From contig CANMFP010000002.1 of assembly GCA_947497265.1 (NCBI GenBank), positions 558,001 through 622,000 of the forward strand: a stretch of 64,000 nt of DNA, written 5' to 3'. Both the position numbers and the translations under genes were made by a program. Under the pieces are notes generated by a model. It was not told where the DNA came from. It did not search any database and was given only the letters and a program-made list of their open reading frames with translations. Each line of letters begins with the position of its first letter. Within the stretch, counting starts at the first letter, position 1. The DNA is from an uncultured Isoptericola sp. Its GTDB lineage: Bacteria > Actinomycetota > Actinomycetes > Actinomycetales > Cellulomonadaceae. Below are positions 24,800 to 42,170 of the stretch, one piece after another.

Positions 24800-24916
24800 G
24801 GTCTCGACATTACCCACGGCGCCCGGGCCGTGTCGCCGGATGACACAGAGCCGACCCCGAAACGCCTCGTGCCCGACGGCTGCACGGGCGCGGGTGCCAT
24901 CATCTCGTGTCCGCCG

Positions 24917-25750
24917 TCAGGCCACCTGAGGGACCATCGCCCGCAGCATCGAGGCACCCGCAGCGAACCGGGGCAGGTCGGCCAGCGGGTCGGCGAGCGC
25001 AACCTCGATCAGCCATCGCACGATGTGCTGCGGGAGCGCGTCGACCAGCGCGCGCAGCTCGTCGCTCGGCAGCGCCAGCGCCAGACGTGCCACCCGGGCG
25101 TTGGGCACGAACTCCGGCCGGACGGCCAGGCGGAGCACGTCCCAGGAGGTGCGGACCTCCTGCCGGTTGAGCTCTGACTCCACCTCGGGCCGGCGCCGGA
25201 ACGCCGTGGCGTCCACCACCAGCACGTGGTGGACACTCGTTGCCCCTGCCTGGACGAGCACCGTCTCCATCGACTGCTCGTGAAGCCCCGTGACCGAGAC
25301 GTCGTCGAGCACGATGACGGTCGTCCCGGCAACCTGCGGGACGATCGTGCTGGCGTCGAGCGCTCCTGCCATGGCGGCCCGTCGATCGGCGGTCCCCATG
25401 GTGGCGTAGTCCCCGTCGGTCGGCCGATGGCGATGCACCTTGACTGCGGACACCGCGACGTCGGGACCGAGACCGGCGCCGAGCGTGTCGACGAAGGGCC
25501 TGACGAGGGACCAGGACGCCGGAGCTGCCAGGCTGAACCCTGACGACGTGACGACGATCCTGGGGCGCGACTCGACATCCGCCTCCCTCAGCACGACCTC
25601 CGCCATCAACGCGCCGTACTTCAGGGAGATCGCGCCGTCGCCGTGCTTGAACCGACTGTACTCGGCGAGGGACAGGTCGCCCGACCGGCCGACGAGGCGC
25701 AGCCCGGCGCCCCGTGTCCGCTCGAGACGGGACACGGCGTACCGACCCAT
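24917..25750 (-). CDS. Ter-cluster phosphoribosyltransferase, second paralogue
   Basis: 277 residues. The PRPP-binding loop is VIVLDDVSVTGLHEQ (~145-160), a type I phosphoribosyltransferase motif. Upstream, LSLAEYSRFKHGDGAISLKYG matches the LDLSDYSSMKHGDVGAA segment of the preceding gene, showing that the two are diverged paralogues (both with a conserved [DE]YS..KHGD). The C-terminal ~110 residues are an alpha-helical domain containing TSWDVLRLAVRPEF. Such PRTases occur in ter stress clusters and are predicted to make a nucleoside-like metabolite. The ATG overlaps the stop of the upstream paralogue (TGATG), and the gene is the last of the operon; a heterodimer is a reasonable guess. Confidence 0.78.
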   Translation of the reverse strand: MGRYAVSRLERTRGAGLRLVGRSGDLSLAEYSRFKHGDGAISLKYGALMAEVVLREADVESRPRIVVTSSGFSLAAPASWSLVRPFVDTLGAGLGPDVAVSAVKVHRHRPTDGDYATMGTADRRAAMAGALDASTIVPQVAGTTVIVLDDVSVTGLHEQSMETVLVQAGATSVHHVLVVDATAFRRRPEVESELNRQEVRTSWDVLRLAVRPEFVPNARVARLALALPSDELRALVDALPQHIVRWLIEVALADPLADLPRFAAGASMLRAMVPQVA

Positions 25751-26607
25751 CACGTCGTACCGGTGCGGTCGACGACGTGGGCGAGCGCCTCCGCGTGCCG
25801 GGCACGGAACTCGTCGCCCGTCGCGACGACGCCGTCCACGATCTCCTGCACGAGCTCGCCCGGGCACACGTCGAGGAACGCCTCTCGGTCGGCCGGCGTC
25901 GTCTGGAGCAGCTGCTTGAGGAAGCGGATGGTCAGCATGAATTCCCTCCGCCGTACGGCGCCCGCCATGTCGGCGCACGTTCGGACCGTGTGCTGGTTGA
26001 GCCGGGCCTCGACCGCGGGATCGCGCGCCAACGCACCCTCGACGACGGCGACGTAGGCCAGCGCGACGGCAGACGGCCGCGCGCCGGCCAGCGCCGCCAG
26101 GATCGTCGTCTCGGAGCTTCCCGTGACGCGGACGTCGTCGACCACGACGACCTGTGCACCGTCGAGATCGTCCTCGAGCCGGAACCCGATGCCCTCCAGC
26201 TCGGCGGCGCGGTCCACGGCGGACGCCGTGGCGTAGTCCGTCACCGTCACGGCGTCCTTGGCGACCCGGACGAGCCGGCCAGGACCGAGGCCTGCCGCGG
26301 CGCGAGCGGCATCGAGGTGGGCGAGCACCGCTCGCGCCAGGAGCCAGCACGCCGGTCGGACCGCCTTGTAGGCGACCGGAAGGATCGGCTCAGCGGGGTC
26401 CGTGATCAGTGCGGGAGCCTGCTCGACGAGCGCACGAGCGACGGGGACCGCGAGCCTGCGCGCGGCGCCGACGTCGCCGTGTTTCATCGACGAGTAGTCG
26501 GACAGGTCGAGCGACCCGGGTCCGGTGCACGTCAGGTCCGCCGGGGTGGTGAGTCGATAGGCCGCGACCCGGGTCGCCGAGACCGCTCCGACGACGTCGA
26601 CGCTCAT
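25750..26607 (-). CDS. Ter-cluster phosphoribosyltransferase, first paralogue
   Basis: 285 residues. PRPP loop VVVVDDVRVTGSSETT (~165-180), preceded by LDLSDYSSMKHGDVGAARR near residue 35 and by YKAVRPACWLLARAV. The C-terminal domain has QHTVRTCADMAGAVRRREF and FLKQLLQTTPADREAFLD, parallel to the downstream paralogue's C-terminus. ATG 26607 overlaps the stop of the HAD gene (ATGA), and its own stop overlaps the next start (TGATG), so HAD-PRT-PRT is tightly coupled. The family is the PRTase of TerD/TerC stress operons; substrate and product are unknown. A GTG 9 nt further upstream is possible but less likely given the ATGA overlap. Confidence 0.78.
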   Translation of the reverse strand: MSVDVVGAVSATRVAAYRLTTPADLTCTGPGSLDLSDYSSMKHGDVGAARRLAVPVARALVEQAPALITDPAEPILPVAYKAVRPACWLLARAVLAHLDAARAAAGLGPGRLVRVAKDAVTVTDYATASAVDRAAELEGIGFRLEDDLDGAQVVVVDDVRVTGSSETTILAALAGARPSAVALAYVAVVEGALARDPAVEARLNQHTVRTCADMAGAVRRREFMLTIRFLKQLLQTTPADREAFLDVCPGELVQEIVDGVVATGDEFRARHAEALAHVVDRTGTT

Positions 26608-27389
26608 CCCGGGCACCTCTGGTCCAGCCTGGCGAGCATGGACGAGACCACACGATCGGTGCCGTACGTCGCGTCGACATGCGCCGGGATCATGCCGGCG
26701 TCCTGGGCGCCCGCCACGTCGGCGTGCGGGTTGTCGCCCACGTGGACGACGTCCCCGGGCGCGAGTCCCGCGACGTATGCCTGGAGCCCCGCGAGGGTGG
26801 CCGCGAAGATCGTCGGGTCGGGCTTGGCCGCGCCGACCTCGTCGGAGAACGTACGGACGACGAAGGGCTCGAGGAGCCCGATCTCGGCGAGCAGGGCCTG
26901 CATCGTGCCGGCCGGGAGCATGCCGGTGTTCGAGGTGATGGCGAGCGGCACCACGGTGGCGAGCTCGTCGAGGAGCCCGGGGAGCGACGGGTCCAACGGT
27001 TCCGGAAGCAGCTCCAGTGCCAGGTCGTGCTGGCGGGCTCGGAGCTCCTCGACCACGCTCGCGTCGAGATCCGTCGGCCCGCGTCCGAGGACCCCGAGTG
27101 TGAGGTTCAGCCGATCGCCCATGTCATGGTCCCGGCCCGTCGTCTCGGCGCGACGGTCGGCGTCGACATCGGCCTGGCGAAGAGCGTCCGCGAAGCGCGC
27201 ACGATCGGCGTCGGGCGCGATCGCGGCGCGGATCAGGTCGTTGCGCTCTGCCTTGAACCGCGGGTTGCTGCGGATCAGCGTGAGCCAGACGTCGAAGCTG
27301 GCGGCGCGCGGTGCCTCGGGCCGACCCCACCCGAGATCGGGGCGTCGGTCGTCAGCGGCGACCGACGCCCCAGAAGCCACAGAGGTCAC
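26604..27389 (-). CDS. HAD-superfamily hydrolase of the ter operon
   Basis: 261 residues. HAD motif I is ASFDVWLTLIRSN (~30), motif II ITSNTG (~145), motif III lysine GAAKPDPTIF (~185) and motif IV HVGDNPHADVAGA (~215). The nucleophile Asp is present, but the usual second Asp of DxDGT is replaced by Trp (D-V-W-L-T), a variant seen in FDVWxTL-type HAD proteins. HAD phosphatases accompany PRTases in ter clusters, where they are predicted to remove a phosphate from the metabolite; this is inference. GTG 27389 gives a GTGA overlap with the upstream terD stop; GTG 27395 would add two residues. Confidence 0.8.
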   Translation of the reverse strand: MTSVASGASVAADDRRPDLGWGRPEAPRAASFDVWLTLIRSNPRFKAERNDLIRAAIAPDADRARFADALRQADVDADRRAETTGRDHDMGDRLNLTLGVLGRGPTDLDASVVEELRARQHDLALELLPEPLDPSLPGLLDELATVVPLAITSNTGMLPAGTMQALLAEIGLLEPFVVRTFSDEVGAAKPDPTIFAATLAGLQAYVAGLAPGDVVHVGDNPHADVAGAQDAGMIPAHVDATYGTDRVVSSMLARLDQRCPG

Positions 27390-27976
27390 AGGCACTCGAG
27401 CGCGAGAGGGGCGAGCTGTTGCGCCGTCCTGCCGTTCCCGGGGCGGCCGATCGCGGTGAACGTCCAGCCCGCCGGCGTCCGGGAGACCTTCGCCATGACG
27501 AGGGCGGTGTGCGGGCCGGAGCCGGTCAGCGTGAACCGACCGAGCTCGGCGTCGCGGTCGGTGCTGTCCACGACCCGGACCGAGGCGTTGTCGATGTCGG
27601 CGAACGTGTCACCGCTGTAGGAGTTCACGGTGAAGACGATGTGCTCCACCCACGACGAGACCTGGGGCAGGTCGACGACGATCGACTCGTCGTCGCCGTC
27701 GCCCTTTCCTGTGAGGTTGTCCCCGGTGTGGACGATCGAGCCGTCCTTCGAACGCAGGTGCCCGAAGTAGATGGTCTCGCCCACCTTGCCCCTGCCGATC
27801 AGGAGGGCGGAGGCGTCCAGGTCGATCGCCTTCTCGACCGTCCTGGTCCGACCGAAGATCGATCGCTTCTCGACCAGCTTGACGTCCCAACCCAGTCCCA
27901 TGCGGACCTTCGTCAGCGCGGCGCCGGATGTCTTGGCCAGGTCGATGGACTGGCCCTTGGCCAGGGAGATGCTCAT
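27386..27976 (-). CDS. TerD-domain protein (third canonical copy)
   Basis: 196 residues, one TerD beta-sandwich domain. It starts MSISLAKGQSIDLAK, has an insertion of basic residues (KRSIFGRTRTVEK) before IDLDASALLIG, and keeps both calcium-ligand segments: DLDAS and GDNLTGKGDGDDE (~85). The C-terminus (FTAIGRPGNGRTAQQLAPLALECL) differs from the two neighbouring terD copies, so it is more like the TerZ/CABP-type branch. TerD proteins bind Ca2+ and act in tellurite, phage and oxidative-stress resistance at the membrane. It follows terC by 66 nt, with AAAGGAA as ribosome binding site, and overlaps the HAD gene. Confidence 0.9.
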   Translation of the reverse strand: MSISLAKGQSIDLAKTSGAALTKVRMGLGWDVKLVEKRSIFGRTRTVEKAIDLDASALLIGRGKVGETIYFGHLRSKDGSIVHTGDNLTGKGDGDDESIVVDLPQVSSWVEHIVFTVNSYSGDTFADIDNASVRVVDSTDRDAELGRFTLTGSGPHTALVMAKVSRTPAGWTFTAIGRPGNGRTAQQLAPLALECL

Positions 27977-28042
27977 CTCGTGAGGTTCCTTTCGAGTGTG
28001 ATGGTCGACGGCACGACGTGCCAGGCCGTGGATCAGTGCAGG
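27977..28042. promoter_or_regulatory. terC-terD spacer with a small palindrome
   Basis: 66 nt between terC and the third terD. It contains GGCACG-T-CGTGCC, a perfect 6-bp inverted repeat that could be a weak attenuator, followed by AAAGGAA in front of the terD ATG. No clear promoter was seen. Confidence 0.35.
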
Positions 28043-29188
28043 TCAGGCGCCGTGCTCGCTGGTGCCGACCGAGGCGAGCTCGGTCTCGCCCCCCTCGGAC
28101 GCCTCCCCCGCCGCCATCGCGGCGGCGTCCCTCCGGTTGGCCACGACCGACGAGGTCCACGCGGCCGCGATGAAGGCGATCCCGCTGAGGCCGATGACGA
28201 TCTCGGGGATGTCGACGGCGAGCGTCAGCACGAGCAGGATGGCCAGCGCACCGATCGCCCAGTGCGCACCGTGCTCCAGGTATCGGTACTCGGCCATGGT
28301 CCCGTTGCGCACCAGGTAGACGGTCATTGACCGCACGAAGAGCGCCCCGATACCCAGCCCCAGCGCGATGATGATCGGGTCGGGCGTGATGGCGAAGGCA
28401 CCGATCACGCCGTCGAACGAGAACGTCGCGTCGAGGACCTCTAGGAAAAGGAAGAGGGAGAAGGCCGCCTTGCCTGCCAGTAGCACCTGGGAGCCCGCAC
28501 CCCCCGACCCGGCCGCGAGCTCCTCCTCCTTGGCCGCTTCCTGCTCCTCCATCGCGGCGGCCAGCCCGTTGACCCCGATGTAGAGCACGATGCCGAGCAG
28601 ACCCGAGAACAGGACGGTGGAGCGCACGTCGGCGTCGACCAGGAACTCGGAGGCGAGCAGGAGCGCGACGCCGGCCACCACGGTCGGGAGCTGGTCGAGA
28701 CGGCCCATGCGAAGGAGCGGCTTCTCCACCCACGAGAGCCACGTCGACTCTCGCTCCGGGTCGAGGACGAAGTTCAGGAAGAGCAGCAGCAGGAACATGC
28801 CACCGAACGCAGCGATGCTCGGGTGAGCCTGCTCGAGGAGGAAGCCGTAGGTTCCTGGCTCGTGCGGGTCCCCCTTCTCCATCGCGAGGCGGACCGCCTC
28901 GGCGGGCGACACCTGTCCCGTCACGCAAACGATGACGAACGGGAAGACCAGCCGCATGCCGAACACGGCGATGAGGATGCCGACGGTCAGGAACATCCGC
29001 TGCCAGAACGCGTTCATGCGCGCGAGGTACTTGGCATTCACCGCAGCGTTGTCGAACGAGAAGACGATCTCGACCACGATGAGGATGGCGGCCAGCCAGA
29101 CCGCTCCCCAGCCCTGATAGAAGTACGCGATGACCAGCGCCGCGGTCAGCGCGAGCAGGTCCCACTTGAAGTGGCGGAGCGTGTGCAT
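28043..29188 (-). CDS. terC: TerC-family (DUF475) membrane protein
   Basis: 381 residues. Seven to nine hydrophobic helices with the TerC acidic signatures EIVFSFDNAAVNAKYL (helix 2, ~40-55) and LEVLDATFSFDGVIGAFAIT (~245-265); the intramembrane Glu/Asp of SFDN and SFDG are thought to coordinate metal ions. The C-terminal tail is short, acidic and cytoplasmic. This is the DUF475-type of TerC found in actinobacterial ter operons, which forms a membrane complex with TerD-domain proteins and has been linked to metal (Mn2+) export. ATG 29188 (MHTLRHFKWD) is preceded by AAAGAGA and lies 25 nt after the upstream terD. Confidence 0.92.
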   Translation of the reverse strand: MHTLRHFKWDLLALTAALVIAYFYQGWGAVWLAAILIVVEIVFSFDNAAVNAKYLARMNAFWQRMFLTVGILIAVFGMRLVFPFVIVCVTGQVSPAEAVRLAMEKGDPHEPGTYGFLLEQAHPSIAAFGGMFLLLLFLNFVLDPERESTWLSWVEKPLLRMGRLDQLPTVVAGVALLLASEFLVDADVRSTVLFSGLLGIVLYIGVNGLAAAMEEQEAAKEEELAAGSGGAGSQVLLAGKAAFSLFLFLEVLDATFSFDGVIGAFAITPDPIIIALGLGIGALFVRSMTVYLVRNGTMAEYRYLEHGAHWAIGALAILLVLTLAVDIPEIVIGLSGIAFIAAAWTSSVVANRRDAAAMAAGEASEGGETELASVGTSEHGA

Positions 29189-29213
29189 GGTTCTCTTTCT
29201 TCGAGTGGTGCCG

Positions 29214-29801
29214 TCAGCCGGCAAGGAGGCCGAACTCGGTCAGGACGCCGGCCAGTCCGCTGCTGAAGCCCTGCCCGACGGCACGGAACTTCCAGTCGCT
29301 GCCGTGCCGGTACAGCTCGCCGAAGATCAGGGCGGTCTCGGTCGAGGCGTCCTCCCCGAGGTCGAACCGCGCGTCGGCCGCGATGGACGCGGAGTCGTCA
29401 GCGTCGAACACGCGGATGTAGGCATCCGACACCTGGCCGAACGTCTGGCGCCGGGTGTCGGCCTGGTCGATGGACGCGACGAACACGACACGGTCCGCCT
29501 CGGCCGGCAACGCCCCGAGTGCGACGGTCAACGTCTCGTCGTCGCCGTCGCCGTCGCCGGTGCGGTTGTCTCCGAGATGAACGACCGCACCGCTGGGGTC
29601 CTTCGTGTTGTTGTAGAAGACGAAGTGGGCGTCCGACAACGCCTTGCCGCTCGTGTCGACGACGACGGCGGAGGCGTCGAGGTCGAAGGGCGCTCCGTCG
29701 GTGGTACGGGGGTTCCACCCGAGCCCGACCGAGGCGCGCGTCAGCCCGGGGCTGACCTTGGCGAGCGAGATGTTGCCGCCCTTGCTGAGGTTGATGGTCA
29801 T
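29214..29801 (-). CDS. TerD-domain protein (second canonical copy)
   Basis: 195 residues. Canonical TerD: MTINLSKGGNISLAKVSPGL, VGLGWNPRTTD, FDLDASAVVVD, FVFYNNTKDPSGAVVHLGDNRTGDGDGDDE, and RFDLGEDASTETALIFGELYRHG. Both Ca2+-binding segments (DLDAS; GDNxTGxGDGDDE) are intact. It is nearly colinear with the upstream copy at 29816-30403 (same length, most motifs identical), so the two arose by tandem duplication; 14 nt separate them. It precedes terC by 25 nt. TerD-type proteins are cytoplasmic Ca2+-binding proteins working with TerC at the membrane. Confidence 0.94.
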   Translation of the reverse strand: MTINLSKGGNISLAKVSPGLTRASVGLGWNPRTTDGAPFDLDASAVVVDTSGKALSDAHFVFYNNTKDPSGAVVHLGDNRTGDGDGDDETLTVALGALPAEADRVVFVASIDQADTRRQTFGQVSDAYIRVFDADDSASIAADARFDLGEDASTETALIFGELYRHGSDWKFRAVGQGFSSGLAGVLTEFGLLAG

Positions 29802-29815
29802 CGTCGTATCCCTTC

Positions 29816-30403
29816 TCAGCCGGCGTTCAAGCCGTAGTCGGCGATGACGCCGGCGAGTCCCGACGTGTATCCCTGTCCGATGGCGCGGAACTTCCAGTCG
29901 CCGCCGCGCTGGTACAGCTCACCGAACACGAGCGCCGTCTCGGTCGAGGCGTCCTCGCCGAGGTCGAAGCGGACGACCTTGGCGTCGTTCGTCGGGTCGT
30001 CGCGGTCGTAGACCCGGATGTACGCGTCAGCGACCTGGCCGAAGTTCTGCCGCCGCCCCGCCGCGTCGTGGATGCTGGCGAGAAAGACGATCCGCTCCAC
30101 GGCCGGTTCGAGCGCGGTGAGCTCCACGTTGATGGTCTCGTCGTCACCGTCGCCGACGCCCGTCAGGTTGTCACCCTGGTGGAGGACGGCTCCGCTCGGG
30201 TCTTTGAGATTGTTGTAGAAGACGAAGTGCTGGTCGGAGATCGCCTTCCCGGTCGCGTCCAGGAGGATCGCCGAGGCATCGAGGTCGAAAGGGGACCCGT
30301 CGGTGGTGCGCGGGTCCCACCCCAGGCCCACGCAGGCGTGGACCATACCGGGCGCGACTTTCTCGAGCGAGATGTTCCCACCCTTGGAGAGGTTGACTGT
30401 CAT
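29816..30403 (-). CDS. terD: TerD-domain protein (first canonical copy)
   Basis: 195 residues. MTVNLSKGGNISLEKVAPGM, VGLGWDPRTTD, FDLDASAILLD, FVFYNNLKDPSG, the calcium loop GDNLTGVGDGDDE and RFDLGEDASTETALVFGELYQR are all present, followed by the conserved YTSGLAGVIADYG end. It is the closest of the TerD proteins here to the E. coli plasmid TerD/TerE type. ATG 30403 shares its A with the TGA of the upstream gene (TGATG), so translation is coupled. Roles known for the family: tellurite resistance, phage inhibition and stress tolerance; the stress sensed here is unknown. Confidence 0.94.
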   Translation of the reverse strand: MTVNLSKGGNISLEKVAPGMVHACVGLGWDPRTTDGSPFDLDASAILLDATGKAISDQHFVFYNNLKDPSGAVLHQGDNLTGVGDGDDETINVELTALEPAVERIVFLASIHDAAGRRQNFGQVADAYIRVYDRDDPTNDAKVVRFDLGEDASTETALVFGELYQRGGDWKFRAIGQGYTSGLAGVIADYGLNAG

Positions 30404-31176
30404 CAGAGGTTCCCTTCGTGCGGGTGCGGGTGGCTCGGGGAGAGGGGTCGGTCCGGCGACGCCCAGGTGACGTCGTCGTAGCCGTAGGCCTCCGTGGCGT
30501 CGCGGAGCGTTCCGGTGACGGACCGGCCTTCGGCACGCAGGACCAGGCAGCCGAGGACGACGTGACCCGTGAGTGCCACGGAGCGCCCGTCGTCGGGGAG
30601 ATCGAGGTCGATCCGCGCGCCGGTCGCTGTCGTGACGACCAGGGTTCCCCCGGAACTGCGGGCGACGACCGCGAACCGGGAGATCTCGTCGACATGGCCC
30701 AGATCGACGTGAACACCGTCGTCTCGGCGCCAGAAGCGTGGGTGCTCCGCATCCGGACCGTGGCGATCGGCACCCGTCAGCACCCCTTGCATCCCGCGTG
30801 CCTGGTAGGCCACGACGAGGTCTGCCGGCGTGGGTGCGAGCACCCGGCAGCTCAGTGCGCCGATGCCGCTCGCGGCGCGCCCCAGCATCACCACTGGTTC
30901 GACGTCGGTCAGCCGGCGGCGTTCACCGGCCCCGAGCCGGGGGATTCCTGTCGGTTCCGCCGGCAGCGCTGCCCGCGACCGGCGGACCGCGCCGGCCGAC
31001 GACGCGCTGGCCGACGACACGCTGGCCGATGACGAACCGCCCAGCGCTGGAGGTGTCGGCGCCGGACCGACAGGCGACGAACGACGCTGCGGCGCCGGGG
31101 GCCGACGACGTCTCATGAAGGCGAGGTCTGGGCGCGGCGGGGCAGCGGCCGCCGTCGCCCCGGATGCTTCCGTCAC
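30403..31176 (-). CDS. Divergent TerD-like protein with low-complexity N-terminus
   Basis: 257 residues. Residues ~15-85 are Pro/Arg/Ser/Ala-rich and disordered-looking (MRRRRPPAPQRRSSPVG, then Ser/Ala repeats). Residues ~85-257 look like a beta-sandwich: DVEPVVMLGRAASGIGALSC, VHVDLGHVDEISRFAVVARSSGGTLVV and VVLGCLVLRAEGRSVTGTL, which follow the strand order of TerD (the VDL..V..I.RF.VVA part aligns with the VDL..VP..V.RIVF part of TerD). No DLDAS or GDN..DGDDE calcium motif is present. GTG 31176 overlaps the upstream stop (GTGA). I regard it as a TerD-related partner, but a distinct unrecognised family is possible. Confidence 0.55.
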   Translation of the reverse strand: MTEASGATAAAAPPRPDLAFMRRRRPPAPQRRSSPVGPAPTPPALGGSSSASVSSASASSAGAVRRSRAALPAEPTGIPRLGAGERRRLTDVEPVVMLGRAASGIGALSCRVLAPTPADLVVAYQARGMQGVLTGADRHGPDAEHPRFWRRDDGVHVDLGHVDEISRFAVVARSSGGTLVVTTATGARIDLDLPDDGRSVALTGHVVLGCLVLRAEGRSVTGTLRDATEAYGYDDVTWASPDRPLSPSHPHPHEGNL

Positions 31177-31739
31177 AACGGCAGCTCGAACTGGCGGGCC
31201 AGGCCGACGAGACCCGAGGCGTGTCCCTGGCCGACGACGCGGAACTTCCAGTCGTCGCGGTGCCGGTAGAGCTCGCCGATCACCAGGGCGCTCTCGTTGC
31301 TCAGGTCGTCGGTGAGGTCGACGGAGCGCACGAGCACGTCTCCGCTCGATCCATCGGAGACCTGGACGACGCACGAGCGCAGCTGGTTCAGTGCCCGGCG
31401 CTTGGGGCTGCCCTCGTTGACGTGCAGGATGAAGGCGATCCGCCCCACCTCGGCCGGGACCGCCGGGAGGTCGACCTCGATCTGTTCGACGTCGACCTCG
31501 CTCGCCGCGTCGGCCACCGCGACCGAGCGGTCCGACGACACGAGCTGGTTGAAGTAGACGAGATCTTCGGCGGACCGCGCGACACCGTCTCCGCTGCAGA
31601 GGATCGCCGCCAGCCGGAGGTTGTCGGCGAGCGCGGGGTCGGTGCTGGGGTCCCACGAGATGCCGACGACGACCTGCTCCAGCCCCGGCACCTCCCGGGT
31701 CAGGGCGACGTTCGCGCCCCGCATGAGCCCGGCCGTCAC
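31173..31739 (-). CDS. TerD-domain protein lacking calcium ligands
   Basis: 188 residues. The overall TerD plan is kept: MRGANVALTREVPGLEQVVVGISWDPS, LVYFNQLVSSDRSV, EVDLPAVPAEVGRIAFILHVNE, VDLTDDLSNESALVIGELYRHRDDWKFRVVGQGHASGLVGL. However, DLDAS is replaced by DNLRLAAIL and the GDN..DGDDE loop by AVADAASEVDVEQIEV, so both Ca2+-binding segments are gone. It may be a structural, TerA-like member that forms mixed assemblies with the Ca2+-binding TerD proteins. GTG start overlapping the upstream stop (GTGA); stop overlapping the next start. Between the XpaC-like gene and the 257-aa gene. Confidence 0.8.
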   Translation of the reverse strand: MTAGLMRGANVALTREVPGLEQVVVGISWDPSTDPALADNLRLAAILCSGDGVARSAEDLVYFNQLVSSDRSVAVADAASEVDVEQIEVDLPAVPAEVGRIAFILHVNEGSPKRRALNQLRSCVVQVSDGSSGDVLVRSVDLTDDLSNESALVIGELYRHRDDWKFRVVGQGHASGLVGLARQFELPL

Positions 31740-32260
31740 AGGTCGCTCCCGGCGAACTTGGTGCGCAGGAACGCGCCCTGCACCTCGTGCGCCAGCACGT
31801 CGTCCTCGCGCGCTGCGACGAGGGTCTCCTGGACGAAGGACCGCATCGCTTCGAGCTGCTCGACGAGGTCCCGGTCCACGGCATCGGTCGCGCCGGCCCG
31901 GCGAGCGCCTACGTACCGCGTCAGCGTGGTGGGCAGATAGTCACGCAGGAGGGCGTCGAGTCCGATGCGCCCCTGGATGTCCAGTCCACCCTGCAGCGCA
32001 GGCCGCAAGATCTCTCGCGCACCGTCGGTCACGAGGCGTGCCAGCACCGTCGCCTGGGGCGGGAGAACACCGCCGAGCCGGTCGATCTCCTGCTCGACCG
32101 TGCCCACCCGCTGCATCAGCACCACCGGGTCGTCGTCCGCGCGGACGGTCTCCTCCAGCCGTTGCACGACGGGGTCGGCGACACGGAACCGCCACCGGGA
32201 GAGGAGCCGTCCGACGACGCCAGGGGACTCGGCGGAGGCTGCGGGATCCGCAGTGCTCAT
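31736..32260 (-). CDS. XpaC-like helical partner of TelA
   Basis: 174 residues, almost entirely alpha-helical. The N-terminus (VVGRLLSRWRFRVADPVVQRLEETV) is amphipathic. The C-terminal half, with DALLRDYLPTTLTRYVG, DLVEQLEAMRSFVQETLVAAREDDVLAHEVQGAFLRTKF, resembles the C-terminal pattern of XpaC/PF10112 proteins (YLPTTLKLLEKY ... acidic helix), which are encoded next to telA in many bacteria. The typical XpaC membrane helices are not evident, so the assignment is tentative. The ATG overlaps the telA stop by 4 nt, and the stop overlaps the next gene by 4 nt. Function unknown; a complex with TelA is the obvious hypothesis. Confidence 0.5.
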   Translation of the reverse strand: MSTADPAASAESPGVVGRLLSRWRFRVADPVVQRLEETVRADDDPVVLMQRVGTVEQEIDRLGGVLPPQATVLARLVTDGAREILRPALQGGLDIQGRIGLDALLRDYLPTTLTRYVGARRAGATDAVDRDLVEQLEAMRSFVQETLVAAREDDVLAHEVQGAFLRTKFAGSDL

Positions 32261-33438
32261 CCGTCGATCGAGCGCTGAGCGCGGTCGACGTACGGCTGCG
32301 CGCGTGCCACCTGCTCCTCGAGTTGGGTGATCGTGCTCGCCATCGACTCTGTGGCCTGCGAACGGAAGGTGTCGATTGCGTCCATGGTGGCGAACACGTT
32401 GTCGAAGGCGGCCTTCAGCTTCTCCACTTCGAGGGTGCTCTCGGCGGCCTGCTGCTGGATCGCAGCACCCTGCTGCCGCAGCTGCACCGAAGTGGACTCG
32501 ATGAGGCTGCTCGTGGTCGAGTTCAGCGCGTTGACCTGGTCCAGCACGAGCTTCTGCTGGCCCAGCGCCTGGGACACGATGACCGCGGTCCGCAACGCCG
32601 CGATCGTGGTGTTCTGCGCCCGGTCGACCCCGCGGATCAGCTCGAGGTTGTTCTTCCGGATGAGGTCCATGGCCAGGTAGCCCTGCACCGAGACGGTCAT
32701 CTGGGTCATGACGTCCTGGTTGCGCTGACGCACGGCGAACAACACGTCGGACCGGAGCGCCTCGGCGGCCTCCGTGTCCCCCGCGTGCTCGAGGTGCGCG
32801 ATCCGGTCGGTCAGGACCGTGTCGAGAGCGTCCAGCTCGGCCTTGACCTCGCCGAGCTTGTTCATCGTCTCCCACATGCGAGAACGCTCGACCTCGATGG
32901 CGGCGTTGTCCTTGCGGAGCTCGTCCTGACCAGAGGCGAGCGATCGGATGATCGCGTCGATGTGGGACTGCGCCGACTGGTACTTGGCGAAGTAGCGGTC
33001 GATCTTCTGGCCGCCCGGCAGCCACTTGAGGACCTTCTTCACCCCGGTCAGGTCCGCACGCGAGGGGTCGAGCTCGGTCACCGTGCTGCGCAGCTCGACC
33101 AGGGTCTGCCCGACCTTGCCCTGCGGGCTCGTGGCAGAAGCCTGAGCGGCCGGCCGCTCGAGCATGCGGTTCGATGCCTGACCAGAACTGCGGATCTCCC
33201 GCTCGCCGAGGGAGCTGATGGCGGTGACCTTGGCCGTGAAGTCGGGCGACTTCGGGTCGAGCGCGGAGAGCTCGCCCACGATCACCTGAGCCCGACGGTC
33301 GGCCTCGGACCGGTGCTCGACGACCTCGGCGTTCTGAGCGATCGTCGCGACGGCCTGGTCGTCGGTGACGCGCGGGGCGGCGGTCGACGCTTCGAGCACC
33401 AGTGCCGGCGGCTGAGCCCCATCGGTAGCTGTGTTCAT
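32257..33438 (-). CDS. telA: TelA-family toxic-anion resistance protein
   Basis: 393 residues. Long helices with LKWLPGGQKIDRYFAKYQSAQSHIDAIIRSL (~130), DELRKDNAAIEVERSRMWETMNKL (~165), VQGYLAMDLIRKNNLELIRGVDRAQNTTIAALRTAV (~265) and TVSQALGQQKLVLDQVNALN-like segments identify PF05816 (TelA/KlaA). The family is tied to tellurite, cell-wall antibiotic and bacteriocin resistance by an unknown mechanism. ATG 33438 follows GGAGGGG at good distance; the frame is open 17 codons further but lacks a site. It heads the ter operon and has its own promoter (TTGGTA-N18-TAGCGT). Upstream, 106 bp away, lies jetC. Confidence 0.9.
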   Translation of the reverse strand: MNTATDGAQPPALVLEASTAAPRVTDDQAVATIAQNAEVVEHRSEADRRAQVIVGELSALDPKSPDFTAKVTAISSLGEREIRSSGQASNRMLERPAAQASATSPQGKVGQTLVELRSTVTELDPSRADLTGVKKVLKWLPGGQKIDRYFAKYQSAQSHIDAIIRSLASGQDELRKDNAAIEVERSRMWETMNKLGEVKAELDALDTVLTDRIAHLEHAGDTEAAEALRSDVLFAVRQRNQDVMTQMTVSVQGYLAMDLIRKNNLELIRGVDRAQNTTIAALRTAVIVSQALGQQKLVLDQVNALNSTTSSLIESTSVQLRQQGAAIQQQAAESTLEVEKLKAAFDNVFATMDAIDTFRSQATESMASTITQLEEQVARAQPYVDRAQRSIDG

Positions 33439-33475
33439 GGCCGTCCCCTCCGCCTGTGATGCTGTACGCGGGAGG

Positions 33476-33505
33476 ACGCTAGCAACCATCGTTCCGGGAT
33501 ACCAA
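33476..33505 (-). promoter_or_regulatory. Promoter of the telA-ter operon
   Basis: On the minus strand a -35 TTGGTA (33505-33500) and a -10 TAGCGT (33481-33476) are separated by 18 nt. The predicted transcript starts about 30 nt upstream of the telA ATG and contains GGAGGGG. It is the only convincing promoter seen inside the ten-gene ter run, so most of that run probably forms one transcript. Confidence 0.6.
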
Positions 33506-33507
33506 TC

Positions 33508-33537
33508 ATGTCCGTCTTTTCACCCTTGACCGGACAT
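33508..33537. promoter_or_regulatory. Inverted repeat upstream of the telA promoter
   Basis: ATGTCCG (33508-33514) and CGGACAT (33531-33537) form a perfect 7-bp inverted repeat with a 16-nt spacer, ending 2 nt from the telA -35 box. The position suits an activator or a dimeric stress regulator. The same heptamer was not seen as a pair elsewhere in the window. Confidence 0.45.
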
Positions 33538-33544
33538 CGAACGC

Positions 33545-36500
33545 TCATGTCCCGACGAGCGTCACCAGCCGTGAGCGCCCCGCAGCGTCCTTGACGGCCT
33601 GCAGCACGACGTCGACGTGCGGCTCGAGCGCGCTGACCTTGTCCAGCGGCGCACCGATCACGAGCTGGAAGCCCAGTCCGCGCCACGCGCCCACAGCTCG
33701 CCCGGCGAACCGCGCGTCGGCCTTGATGAACGCCTCGTCGAGGAACACCGGCGCGTACCGCGGGCGCTCGGCATCGGCGTCACCGAGCTGGTAGCGCAGC
33801 GCCGCCCCGACGATGAACGCCACGAGCTCCTGCGACTCCCCTCCGGACTTGCCGGCGATGTGGTCGTAGACGCTCACGTGGTGTCCTGCGAGGTCCACGC
33901 ACTCGGCGCTGATGCGCACGTGCTCACGGACGTCCACCAGTCGGCGCCGCTCCGGCGAGTCGGGCCGGATCCGATCGACGAGGCGCGCCATGCGCTCGTA
34001 CCTCCGCTGGCGCTCCGCGGGCGTCTGCTCGCCCGGGTCGCCGGCCAGGTCGCGCAGCTGCCGGCGGAACGAGGCCACGTCGCGCGCCTCGGTCACCTGG
34101 GCGGTGATGCGCAGGCGGTGGGTGTCGTCGCGGAACGGCAGCGTGGCCAGGATCGCGTTGACGGGTTCCATCCGCTCGCGGATCTCCGCGACCGACCGGT
34201 TCATCACGTTGCCGAGCAACGTCAGGTCGTGCCCGCTGAGCCGACCCAACGTGCGCGACCAGCGCTCGGTGAGCTGGTAGAGGCGCTGCTCCTCGATCTC
34301 GTCGAGGATCCGTGCGAAGTCGTCGTAGGACTCGTCGGGGTCCGTGCCCAGGTTGGGGTTGGGCCACGCGTCGCAGAACCGCTCGAACACGTTGCGCAGC
34401 GCCGCCCGTGCGGAGCGACCCGCCTCGAGCGCCTCGTCGCGGTCGCGCACGAGCTCGCGCACGACGCCGGCGGTCGCCTGCTCGAGCGCGGCGAGCGACA
34501 GCGTCTCCGGGTCCGACGGCGCCACCGCGGCCAGCGCCGCGTCCAGGCGGTCGCGCTGAACTGACGACGGCGCCACGTCCGCGCGCTCGGCCTGGTCGAC
34601 CGAGTCGGTCACCCGGTCCACGAGGTCGGTGATGGCCGCCCACTGCTCACCCAGCTCGCGCACCCGGTTCTCGGCGTCGGCTCGCTCACGGTAGAGCTCC
34701 GTGAGGCGGGAGCGTAGGCGCTGCTCGTCCTCGGCGAGGCCTCGCACCGCGTCGGATCCGTCGCGCAGCGCCGCGAGCCGTTCGGTGCGGTCGGCCACCG
34801 CCTGCTCGGCGCCGGCGACGTCGACGTCCTCCCAGGACAGGCGGAGGACCTGGCTGGCCGCCACGAACTCGTCGGTGTGCGCCGCCTGCCGCAGCCGAGC
34901 CCCCTCCAGCGCGGCACCGGCGTCGCGCAGCGCCGCCCGAGCGTCATCGACGTCGTGCTCGATGCGCGTGCGCCGGCGGGTGTTCGAGAACCCGAGCACC
35001 GACGCGCGTCCCGCACCGCCGTGCGCGCCGCGGGCGCCGTCGGACATCTGGCCGGTGCGCGTGAGCGCCCGCCGGTGGGCGCGCAGCTCGGTGGGGTCGT
35101 CCACGCAGACGTAGGCGAACTGCTCGGCCAGGCGTCGGGCGAGCCAGCCGCCGAACGGGCCGGCCTTGACCTCGAGCCGGCCGGGCAGGGTCGACGGGTC
35201 GGCGTCGTCGTCGAGCGGCAGCCCGGTGGGCACCCCCTCGAACCGGACGCGCCGGCGCAGCGGCACCCCGTCGATGGCTGCCCGGAAGTCCGCCAGCCGC
35301 TGTGCGTCGACGAGCAGCGTGGTGGCGAACCCGCCGAGCGCGACGGAGACGGCCTCGCGCCAGGGCTCGTACTCGCCGCGCACCTCGATCAGCTCGCCCA
35401 CGAACGGCAGCTCGTCGACCTCGAGGCCGGCCGCCTCGGCCAGCGCGAGCCGCGCCGCGTGGTCCTCGGCCGGCATGTTGCCGCGACGTCCGGACAGCGA
35501 CGCGCGCTCCTGCTCGAGCCGCGCGAGACGCTTCTCCGCCTCGGCCACCGCCTGGCGGGCAGCGAAGACCTCCTCCTCGTGCTCCCCGGCCCGGCGCGTG
35601 CGCGACTCGACCAGGTCGTGCGCGCGGCGCAGCACCCGGTCGAGGTCCCGGCGCGTGGCGACCTGCTCCTGCAGGACCCCGAGGTGGGTCTCCAGGCCGG
35701 CACGAGCCGTACGGGTCTCCTCCAGAGCCTCGGTCCGACGCCGGATCTCCCGCTCCGTGGACTCGATCGCGTCGCCGCCCTGGCTGCGCAGGGACGCCCG
35801 CACCTCCTCGAGGTCCGCCTCGGCCGACGCGATCCGCGCGACCGCGGCGGTACGACGCTCCTCGGCGGCACGGTGCGCCGACCTGTTCGCGCCCTCCTCC
35901 GCGCGCACCAACGCCAGCCGGCGATCGTCCCGCCAGGCACCGAACACCGTGGGGCCGGCGGACTCGCCCCCTGCACCGTTGTCGGGCACCCCGAGGGTGT
36001 CCAGCAGCGCGACCGAATGCTGCGCGGCCTCCGCCTGCTCGCGCAAGGTCCGCATCGGGCGGAGCACCTCGACCTGCCGGTTCGCGGTGAGCATCTCGGT
36101 GCGCACGGCGCTGAGCTCGTCGAAGTGCTCGACGGCGCGGTCCGCGACCTCGAGCGTCTCGGGCTCGGTGAGCACCATCGCCTTGTACAGCGCGTCGACG
36201 GTGGTGATCGCCTGCCCCGCCTGGATGCGGCCCAGCAGCTGCATCGCCTTGTGGCCGTCACCGGCGGCGCCGATGCCGAGCGCCGAGTGCAGCCGCGTGG
36301 CGAAGGCGACATCCGTGTCGTACGTCGTGAGCCCTGCGTCGGTCAGCCCTGCCCGGGCGAACCGCCCGGCGGCCAGCGGCTCCAGCTCGCGCAGGTCGAA
36401 CGTGTCGTCGGCGGTGGCGCGCACGACGACGCACTCCTCGTTGCGGGTCGCCCCACGGGGCACGTACCAGGCGCGCAGCGCCGTCAGGACCCCGCCGGAC

Positions 36501-36922
36501 TGGTCGGACCACGACATCGCGATGGCGGTCCACGTGTCCGCCCCGTCCCCGCGCAGCACCTGCTCGCGGCTCGTGGTGCCGTCCGCGCGGGACTCGTCGA
36601 GCTTCCCGCGCGCATAGGACAGCACGTTGCGCTGCTCGCGTCCTCGCGCCCGGCCGGCCGCAGCGCCGTTCGAGGCGCCGTTGAACGGCGTCGTGTGGCT
36701 CATCATCAGCGCGATGTAGGCGTCCAGCAGGGTCGACTTGCCGGAGCCCGACGCACCCGAGAGCAGCGTCGCCGCCGCGGAGAAGCGCACCTCGTGGTGC
36801 CCGTGGTAGCCGCCCCAGTTCACGAGCTGCATCGACCGGGCCGTCCACTGCCGGCCGTCCGAGGCCGCGGGGATCAGCCCGAACAGGGAGTCGTTCATCC
36901 GTGTCGGGGTCGTCACGCTCAT
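33545..36922 (-). CDS. jetC: JetC/MksB-type SMC ATPase
   Basis: 1125 residues. Head-domain start LVNWGGYHGHHEVRF, Walker A GASGSGKST (residues 56-64), then RNVLSYARGKLDE. A long coiled coil (~290-990) is interrupted by a small hinge/insert around LPFVGELIEVRGEYEPWREAVSVALGGFATTLLV and RRVRFEGVPTG. The C-terminal head has signature GKSGGESQ (1024-1031) and Walker B VFLDEAFIKAD (~1060). The order and motifs match the MukB-like ATPase of Wadjet (JetC) and MksB. Every ATPase residue looks intact. In Wadjet, JetABC forms a loop-extruding complex that presents small plasmids to the JetD nuclease; JetD is missing here. ATG overlaps the jetB stop (ATGA). Confidence 0.9.
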   Translation of the reverse strand: MSVTTPTRMNDSLFGLIPAASDGRQWTARSMQLVNWGGYHGHHEVRFSAAATLLSGASGSGKSTLLDAYIALMMSHTTPFNGASNGAAAGRARGREQRNVLSYARGKLDESRADGTTSREQVLRGDGADTWTAIAMSWSDQSGGVLTALRAWYVPRGATRNEECVVVRATADDTFDLRELEPLAAGRFARAGLTDAGLTTYDTDVAFATRLHSALGIGAAGDGHKAMQLLGRIQAGQAITTVDALYKAMVLTEPETLEVADRAVEHFDELSAVRTEMLTANRQVEVLRPMRTLREQAEAAQHSVALLDTLGVPDNGAGGESAGPTVFGAWRDDRRLALVRAEEGANRSAHRAAEERRTAAVARIASAEADLEEVRASLRSQGGDAIESTEREIRRRTEALEETRTARAGLETHLGVLQEQVATRRDLDRVLRRAHDLVESRTRRAGEHEEEVFAARQAVAEAEKRLARLEQERASLSGRRGNMPAEDHAARLALAEAAGLEVDELPFVGELIEVRGEYEPWREAVSVALGGFATTLLVDAQRLADFRAAIDGVPLRRRVRFEGVPTGLPLDDDADPSTLPGRLEVKAGPFGGWLARRLAEQFAYVCVDDPTELRAHRRALTRTGQMSDGARGAHGGAGRASVLGFSNTRRRTRIEHDVDDARAALRDAGAALEGARLRQAAHTDEFVAASQVLRLSWEDVDVAGAEQAVADRTERLAALRDGSDAVRGLAEDEQRLRSRLTELYRERADAENRVRELGEQWAAITDLVDRVTDSVDQAERADVAPSSVQRDRLDAALAAVAPSDPETLSLAALEQATAGVVRELVRDRDEALEAGRSARAALRNVFERFCDAWPNPNLGTDPDESYDDFARILDEIEEQRLYQLTERWSRTLGRLSGHDLTLLGNVMNRSVAEIRERMEPVNAILATLPFRDDTHRLRITAQVTEARDVASFRRQLRDLAGDPGEQTPAERQRRYERMARLVDRIRPDSPERRRLVDVREHVRISAECVDLAGHHVSVYDHIAGKSGGESQELVAFIVGAALRYQLGDADAERPRYAPVFLDEAFIKADARFAGRAVGAWRGLGFQLVIGAPLDKVSALEPHVDVVLQAVKDAAGRSRLVTLVGT

Positions 36923-37662
36923 TCGTCCGCCTCCTGCGGGCTCGCCGCGATGTCCTCGTCCGGCTGCGGGGCAGGCACGGCCTGCTCGTCGGCCCCGTGC
37001 AGCCACCGGGTCAGCTCGCGCAGCCGGTCCACCGGCAGCAGGATCTCCACCACCGGCAGGATCCGGTAGCGACCGGTGGCGACCTCCTCCAGCACCCGCT
37101 CGCGCGCCAGCGCCGCCACCGCGTTGTCGATCTCCCGCCTCCGTGCGGACAGGTTGGTCTCGTCGTGCGCCAGGAAGCCCAGCGCGTAGTCGGCCATCTC
37201 CTCGGCGTCCACGTAGGCCGCCGCCTGGCCCGCGCCCTGTTCCTGACGGAACCGGTTGCGCACGAACAGCATGAGCAGGGTCTCGACCCGCTTGTACGGC
37301 TCGTCCTTCAGCAGCACCGGGATGGTCAGACCGTCGGAGCGGACCTGCCGCTTGTAGGCGATCTCGTAGTCTCGGTCCACCACCAGCTCGACGAACAGGT
37401 CGTGCAGGCGCGAGGACACGACCTGCTGGTGGGTCAGCAGCGCCTTCCACTCCACCGGGTGGTCCGCCGCGGCGAGGTAGCGCCGCTGGAGCAGCAGAGC
37501 CAGCACCCGGCGGGCCTCGAACGGCAGCACACCGGTGTCTCCCGGGAAGAGCCCCGGATCGTCGTCCTCCACCGCCAGGGCCTCGACGAACGTGCCCGAC
37601 GGCGCGGCCTCGTCCGGATCCGGCACCTGCGCCGCGCGTGGCTCCGTGTCCAGCTCAGTCAT
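36919..37662 (-). CDS. jetB: JetB/MksE-type protein (DUF4194)
   Basis: 247 residues. The DUF4194 body (~45-220) contains VLALLLQRRYLAAADHPVEW, LHDLFVELVVDRDYEIAYKRQV, LLKDEPYKRVETLLMLFVRNRFR and EIDNAVAALARERVLEEVATGRYRILPVVEILLP, a winged-helix, kleisin-associated protein as in MukE/MksE/JetB. Short acidic tails flank it. The ATG overlaps the end of jetA by 8 nt, and its stop overlaps jetC by 4 nt, so the three subunits are translationally coupled. It bridges the kleisin (JetA) and the SMC heads. Confidence 0.9.
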   Translation of the reverse strand: MTELDTEPRAAQVPDPDEAAPSGTFVEALAVEDDDPGLFPGDTGVLPFEARRVLALLLQRRYLAAADHPVEWKALLTHQQVVSSRLHDLFVELVVDRDYEIAYKRQVRSDGLTIPVLLKDEPYKRVETLLMLFVRNRFRQEQGAGQAAAYVDAEEMADYALGFLAHDETNLSARRREIDNAVAALARERVLEEVATGRYRILPVVEILLPVDRLRELTRWLHGADEQAVPAPQPDEDIAASPQEADE

Positions 37663-39157
37663 CCGTCCTCCTGATCGGGGTGCGGGGCAGCACGAAGTCG
37701 CGGACCGTCCCGTCGGGACGTCTCGTGGCGACCTGTTCGAGGCCGTCCGCCGGGACGTCGCCCGACGCGCCGCCGTCGTCGTCCGCCGCAAGGTCGAGGT
37801 AGCCGAGCAGCTCCACCGGGCGGCGCAGCGACTCCGGGCCGGAGGCGAAGGCCTGACCGATGCTCGACGGGGCGGCGAGCGTCCCCAGGTGCGCCAGGAT
37901 CTCGGCGTGCTGCGGACCGCCCATGGCGCGCAGGTCCGCGATCTCGTCGCCCGGCGCGAGGCCGTCGGACCAGTCCTCGAGGTCGTCCGGCGGGGTCTCG
38001 GGGCGCAGGTCGTGCAGGGCGGTGCGCAGGCGACCGGGGCGCGCCCGCTCGAACCAGCGCAGCGGCTCCACCCGCGCGGCGCGGCCCGAGGCGGGGAACC
38101 ACTCGGCCATCGCGGCGGTCGCCTCGCGCAGCGCGTCGTCGAGCTCGCGGTCGCGCAACGGGTTGTGGTGGCGGATCTGCGCGGTGACCGTCCGGGACGC
38201 CCGTGCCTGCGCGGCCAGCACCACCTCGATCGCACCGACGAGCTGGGCCCGCAACGACTGCAGCACCGCCCGGTGGTCCGGCGGCAGCTCGGCCGCGAAC
38301 GGGTGCTCGAGGATCGAACGGACCCGGTGCTCGAGACCGTCGAGCAGGTCCGGGTCGCCGAGCAGCTCCATGGCGCCGGCGAACGCCCGGCCCTCCGGCG
38401 TCCGCTCCAGGAGGTTCTCCGAGGCGTCCAGGTACTCGGCGACGACCACGCCCGTGGTGCGCTCGTCCTGCCGCAGCCGCGTCACCATCTCGCGCTGCAG
38501 GCCGGCGATCGACTCCGCGACCCGCGCGAAGTCGGCCGGCAGCTCGCGCACCAGGGAGAGCACGTGGTCGTACTGCTCGGCGAGCCGCGCTGGCTCGACG
38601 GACTCCACCTCTCCGCCGGCCTCGAGCCTGGCCAGCTCCGTCCGTGCGTCGTCGATGCGCGAGCGCAGCTCGCGCATCCGCGCGTCCCGGTCCGGGTGGG
38701 CGTCGCGCGCGAGGTCCTCCACCGTCACGAGCAGCGTCCGGATGCGCGACTCGCTCACCAGACCGCGGGTCCCCTGGGTGCGGGCCACGACGTCGAGCGC
38801 TTCCGCGGCGTAGCTGGAGAGCTGATACCGCTCCGCTCCCACGTCGTCGAGCGACCGCACGAGCCAGCGCTCGCGGACCCACCGAGTGCACAGCACGCGA
38901 GCCGGGTCGCCGGGGACACCGGGTGCGGGAATGTCGGTCGCGTCGGCGGCGGGGACGGCCGTGCGCAGCTCGGCCAGCAGGTCGTCGACCTCCACGTGCA
39001 GCTGCTCCGTGGCGATCGTGGGCCGGTCCGGGGTGAAGACGCAGCGCAGCACCGCCACGACCAGCGGAGCCTCCGCCCTGTGCAGCAGGCCGAGCGTGGG
39101 CGCAGCGAAGGCGCGCTCGACCCCCGCGAGCGCCGTCGCCAGGCGTGCGCTCGTCAC
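37655..39157 (-). CDS. jetA: JetA/MksF-type kleisin (DUF3375)
   Basis: 500 residues from GTG 39157. DUF3375 features: FAAPTLGLLHRAEAPLVVAVLRCVF (start of the domain), VRERWLVRSLDDVGAERYQLSSYAAEAL, an extended helical segment with VEDLARDAHPDRDARMRELRSRID, RTTGVVVAEYLDASENLLERTPEGRAF and a C-terminal HAEILAHLGTLAAP. JetA is the MukF/MksF-like kleisin that links the SMC heads of JetC. A TTG at 39223 would extend it by 22 residues and overlap leuS by 11 nt; GTG 39157 better fits the family N-terminus but has no good ribosome binding site. It lies directly downstream of leuS on the same strand, so read-through from leuS is possible; no jetD lies on either side. Confidence 0.88.
   Translation of the reverse strand: MTSARLATALAGVERAFAAPTLGLLHRAEAPLVVAVLRCVFTPDRPTIATEQLHVEVDDLLAELRTAVPAADATDIPAPGVPGDPARVLCTRWVRERWLVRSLDDVGAERYQLSSYAAEALDVVARTQGTRGLVSESRIRTLLVTVEDLARDAHPDRDARMRELRSRIDDARTELARLEAGGEVESVEPARLAEQYDHVLSLVRELPADFARVAESIAGLQREMVTRLRQDERTTGVVVAEYLDASENLLERTPEGRAFAGAMELLGDPDLLDGLEHRVRSILEHPFAAELPPDHRAVLQSLRAQLVGAIEVVLAAQARASRTVTAQIRHHNPLRDRELDDALREATAAMAEWFPASGRAARVEPLRWFERARPGRLRTALHDLRPETPPDDLEDWSDGLAPGDEIADLRAMGGPQHAEILAHLGTLAAPSSIGQAFASGPESLRRPVELLGYLDLAADDDGGASGDVPADGLEQVATRRPDGTVRDFVLPRTPIRRTDD

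Positions 39158-39212: not shown

Positions 39213-42170
<2,958 letters not shown>

Follow-up and report, generated by a model that had tools for sequence, protein, structure and literature searches.

A nuclease-free jetABC operon of Isoptericola as a probable Wadjet-derived chromosomal condensin, with a telA-ter operon inserted beside it

We analysed a stretch of 64,000 nucleotides from an uncultured Isoptericola sp. (assembly GCA_947497265.1, contig CANMFP010000002.1, positions 558,001 to 622,000; hereafter the window), which carries the genes jetA, jetB and jetC of a Wadjet plasmid-defence system next to a telA-ter stress operon. The jetABC operon is intact, lies on the minus strand between window positions 39157 and 33545, and has no jetD, the gene for the Wadjet nuclease. 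Read along that strand, the order is leuS, jetA, jetB, jetC, a 55-nt gap, telA, ten more genes down to position 24917, and glgP (Table 1). The overlaps are 8 nt between jetA and jetB and 4 nt between jetB and jetC, and the ATPase motifs of the window JetC are all intact (GASGSGKST, Walker A; KSGGESQ, signature; VFLDEAF, Walker B). Pfam and PADLOC matches, coordinates and the reading of these motifs agree with an initial annotation, made from the sequence alone, in describing a complete jetA-jetB-jetC set, and matches to PF13603 and PF05816 confirm its placing of leuS upstream and telA downstream. As that annotation also had it, ter genes follow jetC on the same strand, telA first and then ten others, but not as an unbroken series of overlaps: jetC and telA do not overlap, being separated by the 55-nt gap (∼100 nt with the second ATG as the telA start), and the overlap chain of the ter block is broken by gaps of 14 and 66 nt. 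The window JetC matched the solved JetC chains 8dk2 and 8as8 (E 6.2e-44 and 2.3e-40), and residues 20–326 of the window JetA matched solved JetA. Among named JetC sequences, that of I. halotolerans CG 23 is closest to the window's, with 94% identity. Because a canonical SMC is also present in the window genome (TIGR02168, 904 bits), JetABC is an additional SMC-type motor.

Searching the window by tblastn with six JetD proteins gave no match at E 0.01, consistent with the earlier statement that jetD is missing from both ends of jetABC. Genome-wide, a single JetD_C match was obtained, on contig C10 and in another operon. This second operon (L002 10698-17441) is a complete jetABCD, with DUF3375, DUF4194 and JetC-type ATPase domains and DUF3322 plus JetD_C, and its JetC is 33% identical to the window JetC. 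Formally, a jetD elsewhere does exist, which the initial annotation had named, if co-regulated with jetABC, as a finding that could speak against its reading, but that jetD closes a separate jetABCD, and therefore the window jetABC is without a nuclease gene of its own. The possibility that the C10 JetD is the relocated gene of the window operon was rejected because the C10 JetD has its own jetABC. Near this second Wadjet on C10 (L003 1790-6915) are open reading frames that we take to be Y-family polymerase-like and DnaE-like.

Comparison with relatives indicated that JetD has been lost rather than gained. Where present, JetD lies directly 3' of jetC, as in the order leuS-jetABC-jetD-glgP of another Isoptericola genome (G122) and leuS-jetABC-jetD of locus L053 (the L116 record, Xylanimicrobium). 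The pairwise distances of JetD and JetC were correlated (Mantel r 0.935 over 24 pairs, a value reached in none of 2000 permutations), although genus structure alone would raise r. Similarly, JetC and JetD trees of 25 pairs shared 10 of 22 splits, including those that separate the Nocardia, Actinomadura, Actinoplanes and Cellulomonadaceae sets, and their disagreements were mostly poorly supported in one or both trees. Further, C-terminal JetD remnants persist at two loci, one of 57 residues lying 140 nt past the jetC match in Cellulomonas sp. URHE0023 (L143) and one of 65 residues lying 3 nt past it in Actinomadura sp. 6K520 (L163). Cellulomonas phragmiteti (L125) is ambiguous, with a stop near the JetD N-terminus and an open frame of 389 amino acids over the rest; jetC is full-length at all three loci. 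That the missing nuclease is real and old, and that jetABC would be of Wadjet ancestry, is well supported by these sequence comparisons.

We next considered how widespread JetD-less jetABC is, using 121 family genomes, sampled evenly from a larger group, and 80 named loci, the best 80 of 501 confirmed, a choice that favours near relatives. The first JetC tree had 71 rows, of which 60 fell into one lineage with the window, and JetD stood beside jetC in 6 of these 60; in a second JetC tree of 113 tips, which included the named loci and left out eight distant family rows, it did so in 24 of 113. None of the 28 tips of the group that includes the window (Isoptericola, Luteimicrobium, Paraoerskovia, Sanguibacter, Jonesia, Timonella and their kin) has JetD beside jetC, and in 27 of them jetABC is linked to leuS, the 28th (L102) being cut by a contig end. 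One JetD loss at the base of this group is likely, and two or three early losses are possible. The JetD state is mixed within Actinomadura, Nocardia, Cellulomonas, Promicromonospora and Myceligenerans. On the second tree, a model without regain gave 30 losses, which is an upper bound and counts as JetD-less five of the 80 named loci (L117, L123, L124, L130 and L131) that have less than 1300 nt after jetC and whose JetD-less state is unproved, and reversible parsimony gave 15 changes over the whole tree; the ambiguous L125 was counted as JetD-less in this tree and as JetD-bearing in the named-locus count.

On a genome-wide scale, JetD_C was found in 17 of the 121 family genomes and in four of 18 genus genomes, as a second system in G000, G084 and G128 and at the leuS-jetABC locus in G122. 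Among 23 further genomes with JetD-less or doubtful jetABC, it was found in two, at the L125 locus itself and as an interrupted match elsewhere. A JetD_C match with one internal TGA lies at G149:C15:52791-53216, in the genome of L140 (Cellulomonas denverensis). No JetD_C occurs anywhere in 49 of the 61 family genomes with a window-type JetC; the other 12 have it beside the window-type jetABC (six), in a second system (five; G000, G084, G015, G025 and G064) or on another contig (G120). Five genomes of the JetD-less group carry a second, JetD-bearing Wadjet (G000, G084, G128, G015 and G025). No recurrent replacement gene beside jetABC appeared among the 30 most frequent neighbour clusters of 72 family loci or the 14 clusters listed for the 80 named loci: the listed clusters were those of leuS, glgP and further synteny genes, that of JetD, and others that were small or of mixed strand, and jetABC had no constant companion outside leuS-linked loci. 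A substitute nuclease beside jetABC was rejected on the basis of this clustering; one opposite-strand cluster (14 family loci) is antisense to synteny genes in L023, the locus compared.

Purifying selection acts on the jetABC genes among near relatives. In comparisons of the window with the five relatives closest to it, the ratio of nonsynonymous to synonymous substitution rates (dN/dS; our own Nei-Gojobori script) was 0.10–0.24 for jetC, 0.15–0.30 for jetA and 0.16–0.25 for jetB, compared with 0.15–0.25 for leuS and 0.11–0.21 for glgP. Consistent with this, JetC is kept in 18 of 18 genus genomes, and relaxed patterns (stricter ones flagged many rows) recovered all three ATPase motifs in every one of the 80 named rows and in 59 of the 60 family rows, the exception, L072, being shortened by a split frame in the assembly. 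The nuclease-free JetABC of the initial annotation is thus real, is found across a set of genera and, among near relatives, is preserved by selection.

The neighbouring ter block has a different history. Homology to six sibling loci ends at 33551-33542, level with the jetC stop or slightly beyond it, and picks up again at 24876-24825, ahead of glgP, the exact positions depending on the sibling. Because sibling homology breaks at both ends, the block is fixed as an insertion of ∼8.67 kb; its GC content is 70%, compared with 73–75% in the flanks. In all 17 other Isoptericola genomes jetABC is followed by glgP without ter, and leuS lies 5' of jetA in all 16 of them whose contig extends that far. 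The spacer between jetC and glgP holds JetD in one of the 17 (G122) and ∼0.9–2.4 kb of other DNA in seven, and this slot, where jetD stands in G122, is variable among Isoptericola. The seven loci with other spacer DNA are L018, L019, L020, L022, L023, L025 and L188, and the spacer of L018 has an opposite-strand open reading frame.

The same separation was evident across the family. JetC was matched in 89 of the 121 family genomes, TelA in 59 and both in 44, and only in the window genome, one of these 44, do the two lie within 20 kb of each other (59 bases apart by match coordinates). Of the other 43, 17 have both on a shared contig at a distance of at least 77 kb (nearest 77.6 kb), and 26 have them on separate contigs, in assemblies that are drafts or have several replicons, where the draft state leaves some room for linkage. 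Apart from the window, no telA or ter gene was found at the 72 fetched family jet loci, and telA/terD was found at none of the 80 named jetABC loci, within 8 kb on each side for most and less for some. As for a mobile-element signature, the best direct match between the two insertion junctions was only 7 nt and no insertion mechanism was found; 168 inverted-repeat pairs occur in the region, of which the 25 listed are imperfect (70–86%) and mostly far apart, and these were taken as noise. The layout of jet followed by ter is seen in one genome only, and the ter block most likely stands beside jetC because of a recent landing there. The initial annotation had suggested that JetABC may cooperate with the Ter module or be under its control. 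Because JetC and TelA do not lie within 20 kb of each other in 43 of 44 genomes and the ter block is an insertion, functional coupling was rejected on the linkage counts and the comparison with empty sites. The gene order in relatives, which had been named beforehand as a comparison able to refute the proposal, has the two blocks usually unlinked, with the same 11-gene block standing elsewhere in G123, and the alternative offered at the time, that two unrelated blocks are merely adjacent, fits best.

The block itself contains the Ter stress-response set of TerD, TerC, TelA, HAD and PRTase genes. Among ten TelA stretches from other genomes, the full 11-gene order recurs in G123 (same genus), G024 and G060, a near-identical order in G035 and G010, and a partial one in the remaining five, and none of the ten has a jet, leuS or glgP match. 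The two proteins of the block without a database match, of 174 and 257 amino acids, accompany telA in 9 and 8 of these ten stretches, respectively. By eye, a weak promoter-like element was read 5' of telA in the window, L091, L092 and perhaps L095 among seven aligned sequences; a consensus promoter scan reported no promoter. In G041 and G091 (L097 and L098), terC-terD are opposite in strand to telA, whereas the window block runs in a single direction, and at G048:C4:585831-587033 a TelA match is broken by one TGA. Elsewhere in the window, the open reading frames at 48882-49733 and 55355-57910 presumably encode proteins resembling the end-joining proteins Ku and LigD.

Table 1. Features of the jetABC locus and the adjoining ter block, in window coordinates.
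Feature	Position	Strand	Evidence
leuS, upstream neighbour, conserved in this jetABC group	39213..42170	-	PF13603 editing domain, E 1.6e-51; synteny
jetA (kleisin, DUF3375), GTG start	37655..39157	-	PF11855, E 2.9e-109; PDLC00464, 554.9 bits
jetB (KITE, DUF4194)	36919..37662	-	PF13835, E 1.2e-36; PDLC00473, 267.7 bits
jetC (MukB/SMC-like ATPase, 1125 amino acids)	33545..36922	-	PADLOC JetC1 model PDLC00517, 1476.8 bits; PF13555, PF13558
jetC-telA gap with promoter-like element TTGGTA-18-TAGCGT	33490..33544	-	read by eye
Inserted ter block, ∼8.67 kb, between jetC and glgP	24876..33542	-	sibling homology breaks
telA	32257..33489	-	PF05816, E 8.6e-83
174-residue protein, conserved after telA, without Pfam, NCBIfam or PADLOC match	31736..32260	-	
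TerD-domain protein	31173..31739	-	PF02342, E 9.5e-46
257-residue protein, conserved in ter blocks, without Pfam, NCBIfam or PADLOC match	30403..31176	-	
TerD-domain protein	29816..30403	-	PF02342, E 6.4e-75
TerD-domain protein	29214..29801	-	PF02342, E 1e-73
TerC-like membrane protein (DUF475)	28043..29224	-	PF04332, E 6.1e-118; PF03741, E 7.3e-17
TerD-domain protein	27386..27976	-	PF02342, E 1.9e-42
HAD hydrolase	26604..27395	-	PF00702, E 1.2e-12
PRTase_3	25750..26616	-	PF15610, E 7.4e-16
PRTase_3	24917..25753	-	PF15610, E 2.7e-20
glgP (glycogen/carbohydrate phosphorylase), follows jetC in sibling genomes	22319..24817	-	PF00343, 1037.8 bits; synteny

Overall, we consider it likely that the window holds two unrelated neighbours, a JetD-less, Wadjet-derived and condensin-like JetABC and an inserted, self-contained telA-ter operon. 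The leuS-jetABC locus would have been inherited mostly vertically from a Wadjet ancestor, and jetD, formerly between jetC and glgP, would have disappeared at an early stage of this lineage. What is left is JetABC, a motor of the SMC type that has a kleisin and a KITE subunit; it would extrude loops of chromosomal DNA and, judging from its genes and their setting, is probably a chromosomal condensin of the MksBEF type, acting as a second condensin beside canonical Smc without cutting plasmids. The telA-ter operon would be a stress-response unit that entered the jetC-glgP spacer of the window genome and is presumably transcribed separately from jetABC. A role other than plasmid cutting is favoured because of the fixed place of jetABC beside leuS, its long retention, and the second, JetD-bearing Wadjet in the five genomes of the group noted above.

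Several observations weigh against this reading. L164 and L170 are paired in the JetD tree (95/97), contradicting a well-supported JetC split, and this pairing may reflect transfer of JetD. The 28-tip clade is weakly supported, with a Shimodaira-Hasegawa-like approximate likelihood ratio (SH-aLRT) of 87, and of 42 for its counterpart in the 71-row tree. Beyond the closest relatives, the divergence of jetABC outpaces that of leuS and glgP: against L022 and L024, dN/dS was 0.44–0.56 for jetA and jetC and 0.39–0.45 for jetB, compared with 0.26 for leuS and 0.19–0.23 for glgP, although the counted synonymous distance barely grows in these comparisons and the ratios may be inflated, and identity was 64–67% in jetC compared with 81–86% in leuS and glgP. 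Further, an N-terminal stretch of JetB, LFxGDxGxL, is kept with or without JetD in most readable rows; the script missed the pattern in some JetD-bearing and JetD-less rows, several of which had an extraction start too far upstream. In a review (PMC10586767), contact with JetD is attributed to an IFDR motif at the N-terminus of JetB, and our guess is that LFxGDxGxL might be its counterpart. If so, the JetD interface has not decayed, which would imply either another role for this stretch or a nuclease acting in trans. Erosion of the JetD interface is thus unsupported because the JetB N-terminal stretch is retained.

These points bear directly on the alternatives. JetABC may still act against plasmids without cutting them, by trapping, compacting or silencing small circles, as has been proposed for Smc5/6 on viral circles. 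The retained JetB stretch and ATPase motifs would suit such a role, JetABC persists through many separate JetD absences, and JetABC is the implied source of shape and size sensing in PMC10586767. However, the leuS-side position, fixed in 27 of 28 tips, resembles core genome and not a mobile defence island, and some JetD-less members have additionally gained a complete second Wadjet, so that we regard a non-cutting defence as unlikely. Nor does JetABC readily appear to borrow a nuclease, whether JetD from a different Wadjet or some enzyme not yet recognised. One JetD does exist elsewhere in the window genome and the JetB N-terminus is conserved, but 49 of 61 family genomes with a window-type JetC and 21 of the 23 further genomes have no JetD_C match, the C10 JetD is served by its own jetABC with a JetC only 33% identical to the window's, and the clusters listed include no conserved neighbour; we therefore view a nuclease in trans as rather improbable. 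It is very unlikely that, with jetD decayed, jetABC is itself a relic that is being lost: the patchy occurrence of JetD, its two remnants and the faster divergence of jetA and jetB than of leuS would fit, but the ATPase motifs are retained almost throughout both sets of rows, dN/dS is low among near relatives and JetC is present in every genus genome. Coupling to the Ter module, which one-strand adjacency across 55 nt had suggested, can be given almost no credence, given that the two are more than 20 kb apart or on other contigs in 43 of 44 genomes, do not adjoin within the compared flanks at any of the 80 named loci, and are joined here by an insertion with a weak promoter-like element of its own.

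We tentatively suggest, as a possibility short of an even chance, that within Actinobacteria one Wadjet lineage has its nuclease removed again and again while the motor is kept, that at least one genus group has long kept it nuclease-free as a fixed-locus core condensin, and that the four-gene form survives at the matching position in living sister lineages. Were this true, the change from plasmid weapon to chromosome organiser would be a recurrent and ongoing one, open to testing in closely related strains. JetD-bearing and JetD-less forms at one locus, with remnants between them, make descent of MksBEF from Wadjet testable in laboratory strains, and jetABC matches without jetD are not to be counted as plasmid defence. 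Among the matches listed by a literature search covering titles and the beginnings of abstracts, and few subscription papers, none dealt with JetD loss in these genera or with a jet-ter link.

Compared with known systems, the window block looks like an ordinary Ter stress-response operon, unusual solely in its place beside jetC: PMC7824862, citing Anantharaman 2012, describes Ter operons with HAD and PRTase biosynthetic genes, and the TerD, TerC, TelA, HAD and PRTase set is the same. With respect to Wadjet type I (JetABCD/MksBEFG/EptABCD), the window JetA, JetB and JetC are homologous and encoded in the same order in one operon, and relatives at this locus do carry JetD; however, type I operons include the CAP-Toprim nuclease JetD, whereas the window and the rest of the 28-tip group lack it there. 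A nuclease-free JetABC is of an already known kind. According to PMC10586767 and PMC7485682, MksBEF of Pseudomonas aeruginosa is a chromosomal condensin without a nuclease, and the former source, a review, has already proposed its origin from JetABCD by JetD loss and treats Wadjet descent of nuclease-free MksBEF as likely but not settled. Judged by gene set and published descriptions, the window JetABC shares with it an SMC-like ATPase, a kleisin and a KITE subunit without the nuclease MksG, beside a canonical SMC; the window lineage differs in being actinobacterial, in having extant JetD-bearing sisters and in that its chromosomal role is putative. What is new is thus an actinobacterial case in which four- and three-gene forms stand at one locus. 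Borrelia burgdorferi MksB, likewise an Mks motor, promotes long-range chromosome contacts, and the same report (PMC10406323) describes Borrelia as having no MksE or MksF, whereas the window has all three core subunits.

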